Origin: Anoxynatronum buryatiense
GTDB taxonomy: Bacteria > Bacillota > Clostridia > Peptostreptococcales > Tindalliaceae
DNA: 64,000 nt
NCBI RefSeq assembly: GCF_900182905.1
Contig: NZ_FXUF01000007.1
Location: 124,001 to 188,000, forward strand
Reading direction: 5' to 3'
The number at the start of each line of letters is the position of its first letter. The stretch's first letter is position 1. This document shows positions 16,719 through 33,785 of the stretch, one piece after another. Made by a program: the position numbers and the translations under genes. The notes beneath the pieces are model-generated. The model saw nothing but the letters and a program-made list of their open reading frames with translations. It was not told the DNA's origin and searched no databases.

Positions 16719-16790
16719 AAAGCAATGAAGGCAGTAAAAGCAATGAAGGCAGTAAAAGCAATGAAGGCAGTAAAAGCAATGAAGGCAGTA
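16719..16790. repeat. 18-bp tandem repeat (4 units)
   Basis: AAAGCAATGAAGGCAGTA repeated four times without change, with decaying units to about 16860. Lies in the 16606-17032 gap between divergent genes. No gene is seen in that gap; the repeat is near the DUF1538 promoter side. Confidence 0.9.
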
Positions 16791-17032
16791 AAAGCAGTGC
16801 AGGGAATAGAAGCAGGGAAAGTATTCAGAGCAAGAAAAGTGCTACAAGCAGTGCAGGAGTGTTGAAAGAAGGGCCGGGAGAATCCTGGCAGAGATCAGGC
16901 AGCAGTAACAACCGGTTCAACCAGGTGCTTTCTATGTGCATCCGGTTACCATCGCACTTTACCGGGTAGTAATGAGACAAGCAGCGAATCATCATAAAGA
17001 ACCATTAACATGAGGAAGAGGAGACTGGGCAG

Positions 17033-17856: not shown

Positions 17857-17944
17857 ACCAAAGAACCAAAGAACCAAAGAACCAAAGAACCAAAGAACCA
17901 AAGAACCAAAGAACCAAAGAACCAAAGAACCAAAGTATCAAAGT
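17857..17944. repeat. 8-bp tandem repeat upstream of glutathione peroxidase
   Basis: Nine perfect ACCAAAGA units followed by two to three variants with ATCAAAG. It ends ~60 bases before the gpx start, with an AT-rich TATATAATGG just after it, so repeat number would change promoter spacing or leader length. The rest of 17525-18006 shows only the IS-like remnant. Confidence 0.9.
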
Positions 17945-22010: not shown

Positions 22011-22088
22011 CAAGTTCGCAAGCAAGCGCGTAAACAACCTCGAAAGCAGCGTTGTAAATTGATCCACAGGCAAGGCTGCAAACTGTCC

Positions 22089-22124
22089 GCAAACAGGCTT
22101 GCAAACAGGCCCGCAAACAGGCAT
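22089..22124. repeat. 12-bp tandem repeat (3 units) after ugpB
   Basis: GCAAACAGGCNN three times, preceded by looser GCAAG/GCAAA units from 22010. No gene in the 22011-22329 gap. Confidence 0.8.
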
Positions 22125-22201
22125 GCTGATTCCCTGGATAATTCACCCGCTTATAAAGTCATCCAAGGGTGAGCTGAATCACACGAAGGGCAGCAAAATC
22201 C

Positions 22202-24037: not shown

Positions 24038-24144
24038 CACACAGCCACGCCACCGGAGAAAGAGCCGCCACACAAGGGGAGCCAACAAGGGAGCCACATA
24101 ACAAGAGCCGCTACATAAGGAGGCATTTCAGAGGCATGAAGAGT

Positions 24145-24428
24145 TTATCCATCGTGTTTTGACAGTTTTCCACAATAGCAGGCGTGATATCAACAGTAAA
24201 AAGCATTTTACCCACAAGAACAAAACATTTACTCACAGGAATAAATGATTTACCCACAAAAAAGATATCATTTATCCACAAATAAGACCTCATTTGCTCT
24301 TAAAGATAAGAAAGATACCCACACATAAGCGTGATTTACCCACAGAGAAGCGTGAAATATCCACAGAGACTAACGATTTACACACAGGAGAAATCGGGTT
24401 ATCAACAGAAAACAGTCACATATCCACA
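24145..24428 (+). repeat. Array of 13 DnaA-box-like 9-mers on a 21-bp pitch
   Basis: Sites related to TTATCCACA, all on the plus strand, start at 24145, 24166, 24187, 24208, 24229, 24250, 24272, 24315, 24336, 24357, 24378, 24399 and 24420. All intervals are 21 bases except one of 22 and one of 43 (one decayed position). Site 24272 is the perfect box; others are TTACCCACA, ATATCCACA, TTACTCACA, TTACACACA or TTATCAACA. The 12-base spacers vary. A 67-codon frame starting TTG at 24294 shows 7-residue repeats simply because 21 bases equal seven codons. The rest of the 24038-24741 gap has short GACACTGCA/AAGCCAATGAGAAA repeats and no gene. Confidence 0.9.
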
Positions 24429-24741
24429 ATTGACTGCTGGCATACGTGTTCTGCTAATATTACAGGCATGCGGCTTCTGCTGACACGACAAGCATGAGAA
24501 CTCAGTAGACACTGCAGACACTGCAGACACCACAAGTCTGTAAACACAGTTAACACCGCAAGTATCCAAACACTGCCGGCATGCAGGCATAAAGAACATG
24601 GCAGGTATCAAGACACCATCGAAGATGGAATCACCAAGATAAAGAAATTGATGTGCGCCCCAAGACAAAGCCAATGAGAAACCAACAAGAAAGCCAATGA
24701 GAAAACCAGCAACAAGATCAAGAATTAAAGGAGGCCCCGCA

Positions 24742-25851
24742 ATGGCAACCATTGAGTTAAAGCAGGTGAACAAAAGCTACGACAACCAGGTATCGGCAGT
24801 GGAAGATTTTTCCCTTACCATCGGTGAGAAAGAGTTTCTGGTGCTGGTGGGTCCCTCCGGGTGTGGAAAATCCACCACCCTGCGCATGATTGCCGGGTTG
24901 GAAACCATCACCCGGGGCGACCTGTACATCGACGGCGAAGCGGTGACCCACCGCCCTGCCAAAGAGCGAGACATTGCCATGGTGTTTCAGAACTACGCCC
25001 TGTATCCCCATATGAGCGCTTATGAAAATATGGTTTTTGGTCTGAAAATGAAGAAAGTGCCCCGGGAGGAAATCCAGCGGCGGGTGAAAGAGGCGGCGGT
25101 GATCTTAGATCTGGATGACCTGCTGCAACGAAAACCCAAAGAGCTTTCCGGCGGCCAGCGGCAGCGGGTGGCCCTGGGCCGGGCCATTGTGCGGGAGCCA
25201 AAAGCGTTTCTCATGGACGAACCCCTCTCCAATTTGGATGCTAAGCTGCGGGTGCAGATGCGTACCGAACTGAGCAAGCTGCACCAGCGGTTGCAGACCA
25301 TTTTTGTGTATGTGACCCACGACCAGGTGGAAGCCATGACCATGGCCGACCGCATCGTCATCATGAAAGACGGGCGCATTCAGCAGATTGGCACACCTGC
25401 CGAAGTCTACGAAACCCCGGCCAACGTGTTTGTGGGCGGGTTTATTGGATCACCCCCCATGAACTTCATGAAAGGCCAGGTGGTGCGGGAAGGGGATGCG
25501 CTGCAGCTGATCTGCGCCGGCGAAAAATGGCAGGCAGCGGGAAGCACAGCCACCCGACTGGCAGAAAGCGGGCTTCAGCAAGTAATGGTGGGCATCCGCC
25601 CCGAAAACATGCAGTTGGCAGAAACCGCCGCCGACAATGTTACCGACAGCGGCCACCAGCGGCTTCCCTTCCAGGTGGAAGTGGTGGAATATCTGGGCGC
25701 CAACATGCTGGTGCATGGCACCGTCGGTGATCACCGGTTGGTGGTAAGCCTGAATCATCGCCAGGGAGTGAAGGCGGGGGAATGCCGGCACCTGCTGGTG
25801 AACATGAACCAGATCCACTTCTTTCATCCTGAAACAGAGCTTCGGTTGTAG
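24742..25851 (+). CDS. ugpC: ABC transporter ATP-binding protein, UgpC/MsmK type
   Basis: 369 residues. Walker A GPSGCGKST, Q-loop VFQNYALYPHM, signature LSGGQRQRVALGRA, Walker B AFLMDEPLSNLD and the switch His in VTHDQVEAMT are all intact. The C-terminal ~120 residues form the OB-type regulatory domain of the MalK/UgpC group. Start 24742 follows AAGGAGG. It probably energises UgpAE; such ATPases can serve several carbohydrate transporters, which could explain separate transcription. Confidence 0.92.
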   Translation: MATIELKQVNKSYDNQVSAVEDFSLTIGEKEFLVLVGPSGCGKSTTLRMIAGLETITRGDLYIDGEAVTHRPAKERDIAMVFQNYALYPHMSAYENMVFGLKMKKVPREEIQRRVKEAAVILDLDDLLQRKPKELSGGQRQRVALGRAIVREPKAFLMDEPLSNLDAKLRVQMRTELSKLHQRLQTIFVYVTHDQVEAMTMADRIVIMKDGRIQQIGTPAEVYETPANVFVGGFIGSPPMNFMKGQVVREGDALQLICAGEKWQAAGSTATRLAESGLQQVMVGIRPENMQLAETAADNVTDSGHQRLPFQVEVVEYLGANMLVHGTVGDHRLVVSLNHRQGVKAGECRHLLVNMNQIHFFHPETELRL

Positions 25852-33673: not shown

Positions 33674-33763
33674 GCAAATGAAGTAGAGAAGGTAAATGAA
33701 GCAGAGAAGGTAAATGAAACAGAGAAGACAAATGAAACAGAGAAGACAAATGAAACAGAGAAG
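33674..33763. repeat. 18-bp tandem repeat (5 units) before crotonase
   Basis: Units of GTAAATGAAACAGAGAAG type, five in a row with 1-2 changes. They keep a reading frame open into crotonase, but the ribosome site at 33772-33778 argues for the start at 33786. Confidence 0.88.
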
Positions 33764-33785
33764 GCTTGTTGAAAGGGGCGTTGGC

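Follow-up and report, generated by a model that had tools for sequence, protein, structure and literature searches.

We suggest that an array of putative DnaA boxes in a transporter operon of Anoxynatronum buryatiense is probably a young DnaA-box cluster lying outside oriC, at which DnaA would bind cooperatively along one face of the DNA and thereby be titrated. The array spans positions 24145-24428 (284 bp, + strand) of the window, which is the whole 64-kb stretch of DNA analysed here (C7:124001-188000; the genome assembly totals 4.16 Mb over 47 contigs). It consists of 14 units of 21-bp pitch, one of them decayed. The remaining units carry thirteen 9-mers of the TTAYCCACA type, related to TTATCCACA, all on the + strand.

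The array begins with box 1 (TTATCCATC, 24145-24153), the weakest of the 13, followed by box 2 (TTTTCCACA, 24166-24174), box 3 (ATATCAACA, 24187-24195), box 4 (TTACCCACA, 24208-24216), box 5 (TTACTCACA, 24229-24237) and box 6 (TTACCCACA, 24250-24258). Box 7 (TTATCCACA, 24272-24280) is a perfect consensus. Beyond the decayed unit (TTGCTCTTA, 24294-24302, also +) the array continues with box 8 (ATACCCACA, 24315-24323), box 9 (TTACCCACA, 24336-24344), box 10 (ATATCCACA, 24357-24365), box 11 (TTACACACA, 24378-24386), box 12 (TTATCAACA, 24399-24407) and box 13 (ATATCCACA, 24420-24428). The step between boxes is 21 bp ten times, 22 bp once and 43 bp once, the last covering the decayed unit. Coordinates and steps thus reproduce what the first-pass annotation had described, 13 same-orientation 9-mers at 21 bp with one interval of 22 and one of 43. 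The E. coli definitions of a DnaA box are fitted by only 4 of the 13 boxes. Position 4 is C in six boxes and position 6 is A in two. Viral phased arrays seldom show a C at position 4 (2 of 306), but in genomic ones it is found in 33 of 246 cases. The host's own oriC contains both TTACACACA, the 9-mer of box 11, and ATATCCACA.

Chance does not account for the array. A chain score that favours boxes following each other at 20-22 bp reaches 81.8 here, against at most 15.5 when the 700-bp gap is Markov-shuffled 300 times and a maximum of 11.2 in 12 shuffles of the whole 64 kb. Boxes exactly 21 bp apart, with up to three mismatches each, form 35 pairs genome-wide, of which 10 are inside the array and the other 25 are at the level of the reversed-pattern control (24); mismatches were allowed because a stricter TWWMCCACA-pair pattern is unsuited to the varying units of the array. 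In a box-cluster survey covering 2.0 Mb (48% of the genome) no other cluster is as dense or as regular as the array, which has 12 phased boxes over threshold and one overlapping match. The array stands above both oriC halves, which come next in density together with one cluster on contig C5, at nine boxes each. The prospect that hundreds of such arrays are scattered over the genome is not borne out, either by the genome-wide pair search or by the 2.0-Mb cluster survey. The array is a local box cluster outside oriC, well above background, which is one of the traits by which DnaA-box clusters (DBCs) are recognised.

Conservation within the array is concentrated in the boxes. With the 13 units aligned and corrected for indels, mean pairwise identity per column is 0.77 in the box columns (9 of 21) and 0.335 in the 12-bp spacer columns, near the composition background of 0.29; the spacers are indeed variable, as had been claimed in setting the array apart from CRISPR and simple satellite repeats. 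Neighbouring spacers are 0.45 alike and non-adjacent ones 0.31, an example of the likeness between neighbouring units being AAGCGTGA. Since adjacent spacers resemble each other and the boxes are conserved, the array was born by tandem duplication, and its boxes were retained while the spacers decayed. Nearly all other periodic arrays in 2.0 Mb lack a strong core, in a survey whose values, obtained at a fixed lag and with no indel correction, are not directly comparable with 0.77 and 0.34. One other periodic stretch from that survey, at C5:178572 (lag 21), does have a strong core (0.65 against 0.35 for the rest) and is possibly a coding heptad repeat.

The host operon has the order HAD hydrolase, GlpP-type antiterminator, ugpB, ugpA, ugpE, ugpC. 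The array lies where it had first been placed, between the gene for a ugpE-like permease (PF00528; 23237-24037, +) and that for a ugpC/malK-like ABC ATPase (about 24742-25851, +). The gap of 704 bp (24038-24741) is a repeat-rich insert. The ugp operon was not found in the six same-family genomes examined (G001-G006). Outside the family but within the same taxonomic order, two genomes (G615 and G623) share the gene order, with UgpE 76% identical, and there the ugpE-ugpC junction measures about 70 bp and holds no box. The array therefore belongs to lineage-specific growth of the spacer. The comparison with relatives that the first-pass annotation had proposed thus found the array missing from the orthologous operon of two genomes, so that it is lineage-specific; short tandem repeats abound in this genome. 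Between ugpB and ugpA, too, the spacer is repeat-rich, measuring 319 bp here versus about 25 bp in G615 and G623, with 12-bp repeats in the expanded gap. Young short tandem arrays are seen elsewhere in the window, some of them in expanded gaps: at 16719-16814 and 33674-33765 (18-bp units, five copies each), at 17857-17943 (8-bp unit, 11 copies) and at 22073-22126. No second copy of the insert was found in the host's own genome, in 41 related genomes or in plasmid or phage collections. An Rfam search of the region gave sub-threshold matches to eukaryotic families only, which we take as chance. In the ugpE-ugpC gap a promoter scan found no promoter-like site, and the only hit of a terminator scan was weak and lies on the - strand.

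The dnaA gene, encoding the only DnaA of the genome, is at C7:85995-87362 on the minus strand. It is adjoined by dnaN and flanked on both sides by DnaA boxes, forming a bipartite oriC. The first-pass description of the array as not beside dnaA is literally correct, but the two share a contig, about 61 kb apart; the distance to the upstream oriC half is about 60 kb, or 1.5% of the genome. Origins are marked by a switch in GC skew and by an AT-rich unwinding element with DnaA-trios. The skew changes sign at dnaA (85 kb) and not at the array (148 kb), whose flanks have a GC content of 0.56 and 0.45, i.e., they are not AT-rich.

Related boxes recur in other clusters of the genome and family. The extra-oriC cluster upstream of hpf (L035:4991-5104; also L061, L074, L062 and L063) has the boxes TTATCAACA, TTACCCACA and TTATCCACA at steps of 12, 9 and 23, and boxes and steps alike are kept, despite differing spacers, in five genomes from two genera. 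The odd variants of the array, TTATCAACA and TTACCCACA, are thus ones that the family maintains. Helical phasing at about 10.5 bp is also seen in three further extra-oriC clusters of the genome, on contigs C5, C15 and C6 (R of 0.94, 0.90 and 0.95; p against random placement <5e-5, 0.003 and 0.02, the C6 value being based on four boxes). In this test boxes were taken by a score threshold, and the scan of seven periods was allowed for in the null. In the oriC halves such phasing is not clear. In the extra-oriC cluster at C5:270377-270552 (L036:4378-4553) about ten + strand boxes, all in helical register, occupy the intergenic stretch that precedes a 354-aa ORF.

Phased boxes are also found well beyond the family. 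Triplets of WWWYCCACA at 21 bp occur in at least 113 public-genome loci, against a chance expectation of about 0.1 by our own estimate from pattern length. The 113 loci listed divide into 34 near-identical tandem repeats, 14 loci accompanied by dnaA or dnaN, and 65 with diverse spacers and a location that is elsewhere or unknown. Viral contigs hold 18, 117, 93, 19, 30, 4 and 20 triplet loci at pitches of 20, 21, 22, 23, 24, 26 and 32 bp, respectively, and 8, 68, 29, 5 and 4 at pitches of 20 to 24 bp when only diverse spacers are counted, related phages being included in these counts with incomplete de-duplication. Phage DnaA-box triplets strongly prefer the 21-bp pitch. Phage contigs and some oriCs (Competibacteraceae, cyanobacteria) resemble the array in that their boxes share one orientation, recur every 21-22 bp and are separated by diverse spacers. 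However, their runs are shorter (3-8 units), position 4 is nearly always T, and they lie near phage or origin genes, whereas the array is in a host operon. It is possible that the phage arrays are phage origins or DnaA capture sites. Six IMG/VR contigs (L232, L234, L291, L300, L306 and L255) are examples, with 3-8 boxes in a single orientation, a pitch of 21-22 bp and spacers that differ, and phage-contig boxes are often preceded by AG.

Any TCCACA triplet at 17-25 bp is present in 41 of 398 Bacillota genomes, and among the places listed from these genomes none comes near 13 units of the array's kind. The intergenic arrays of Neobacillus (L152, L117 and L084) share with it ATATCCACA, TTACCCACA and TTATCAACA at 20-22 bp. 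They reach up to 11 units and contain "LST" reading frames, but they are less regular and their flanking genes are unrelated. The "LST" heptads that the first-pass annotation mentioned for Bacillales are thereby confirmed, since L152 yields the frame MKLSTKPTVLSTKLTSLPT. Several species of Glycomyces have a conserved phased TTATCCACA triplet (L086, L089, L108, L114, L118 and L161), with no dnaA or dnaN found within the 8-kb locus.

To our knowledge, DnaA-box clusters outside oriC are known in few bacteria. A conserved location is a frequent but not a defining trait of them, and it is one that the array, absent from G615 and G623, does not share. In B. subtilis eight regions are strongly bound by DnaA, with 4-12 sites each and a Kd of 0.13-0.33 uM, and those outside oriC hold 4-11 sites (PMC4447404). 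DBCs are located there at gcp/ydiF, ywcI/vpr, ywlC, sda/yqeG, yydA and trmE (PMC4447404, PMC5295017), and initiation comes early once six extra-oriC clusters are removed (PMC5295017). Like these DBCs, the array offers several putative DnaA sites in an intergenic place outside oriC, and some of the DBCs are near oriC as well. Unlike them, it has 13 putative sites in one orientation and at a strict 21-bp pitch, is tandem-duplicated, lies inside an operon and is not conserved in location. In two Alkaliphilus species phased boxes adjoin tsaD (gcp), the site of a B. subtilis DnaA cluster. In E. coli boxes pile up near oriC and the chromosome titrates DnaA (PMC12371093). The five boxes of datA are spread over about 1 kb, and the site requires IHF (PMC5295017); an IHF site inside the box cluster and hydrolysis of DnaA-ATP are its hallmarks. 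The array shares with datA, which lowers the amount of free or active DnaA, the dense boxes outside oriC and differs from it in their arrangement.

The main rival to a selected DnaA-box cluster is a neutral 21-bp satellite born by slippage, in which the likeness to DnaA boxes would be fortuitous. The window holds many short tandem arrays, the ugpB-ugpA gap is repeat-expanded too, neighbouring spacers are related, and the array is lineage-specific; given its absence from orthologous operons and the repeat-rich filler DNA around it, drift could have made it. This absence, together with the nine boxes that fall outside the E. coli definitions, we count against our own reading. Yet a satellite is expected to diverge evenly along its unit, and here 9 of 21 columns hold at 0.77 with the others near background. 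Moreover, the conserved core is a DnaA box with variants that the family conserves in its hpf cluster, and nearly all other periodic arrays of the 2.0 Mb lack a strong core. We consider a neutral origin unlikely. We give still less weight to an operator for DnaA or another protein that would control ugpC or the later genes of the ugp operon, for example as a transcription roadblock tying glycerol-3-phosphate uptake to the state of DnaA. The place of the array inside the operon, in the ugpE-ugpC gap, would suit such a role, and DnaA is a transcription factor in B. subtilis (PMC4447404). However, no promoter-like site was found in the gap, orthologous operons have not kept the array, and 13 sites exceed a usual operator.

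A secondary origin, or a plasmid or phage iteron relic, had also been proposed and seems highly improbable. The 21-bp direct repeats are iteron-like and phased box triplets are common in phage contigs, but the skew does not switch at 148 kb, the neighbours form an intact transporter operon, and nothing matching the insert was found in plasmid collections, phage collections or the rest of the genome. The claim of a secondary origin element is not supported, given the position of the skew switch and flanks that are not AT-rich. Plasmid iterons are near-identical repeats with a rep gene nearby. A plasmid iteron array was rejected here, as the nine neighbour genes include no rep-like family, the spacers are near background identity and no plasmid matches, so that the claimed iteron-like relic is not upheld either. 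In CRISPR arrays the repeats are identical and 23-47 bp long, every spacer is unique, and cas genes are present; this candidate was discarded too, the core being 9 bp and degenerate, the spacers 12 bp, and no cas family being present among the nine neighbour genes. Finally, a 67-aa frame (24294-24497) runs over six units, as would a repeat of seven residues (such as LPTEKRE or ISTETND) selected as protein. Two 1-bp shifts (the 22-bp intervals) disrupt the frame, and third codon positions (columns 3, 6 and 9) are equally conserved, with ACA nearly invariant. These frame breaks and conserved third positions exclude selection as protein, to which we assign a negligible probability.

Hence, we return to the young DnaA-box cluster. 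Among the functions first proposed, titration of the datA or DnaA-box-cluster kind is the best supported, by the conserved core, the variants shared with the hpf cluster, the shared phasing and the distance of about 60 kb to oriC, with the reservation that the arrangement is not that of datA. From the sequence we hold it likely that DnaA binds the array, and we see a nearly even chance that titration is its main effect. We propose that a 21-bp unit with a DnaA box multiplied in tandem within the expanding, repeat-rich spacer of the ugp (glycerol-3-phosphate) operon, and that selection would then have retained the 9-bp boxes, two helical turns apart, as the sequence between them decayed. Lined up along a single DNA face, DnaA monomers would bind cooperatively at boxes that are mostly of medium or low affinity. 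As the locus would be duplicated early after initiation, its new copies would absorb free DnaA, and this uptake may help to block early re-initiation, as is thought for the extra-oriC clusters of B. subtilis.

More tentatively, and with a fair measure of doubt, phased same-orientation DnaA-box arrays may constitute a distinct, recurrent class of DnaA-filament sites, found in phages, in some oriCs and outside oriC. Such sites would be born by duplication, and the array would have been caught soon after birth, with its boxes under selection. The 13 sites on one face, the three phased clusters elsewhere in this genome and the preference of phages for 21 bp bear on why boxes are spaced as they are. 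The more general finding, helical phasing in extra-oriC boxes and in arrays of phages, may matter more than this one array, which in turn may show how a titration site appears in a single lineage.
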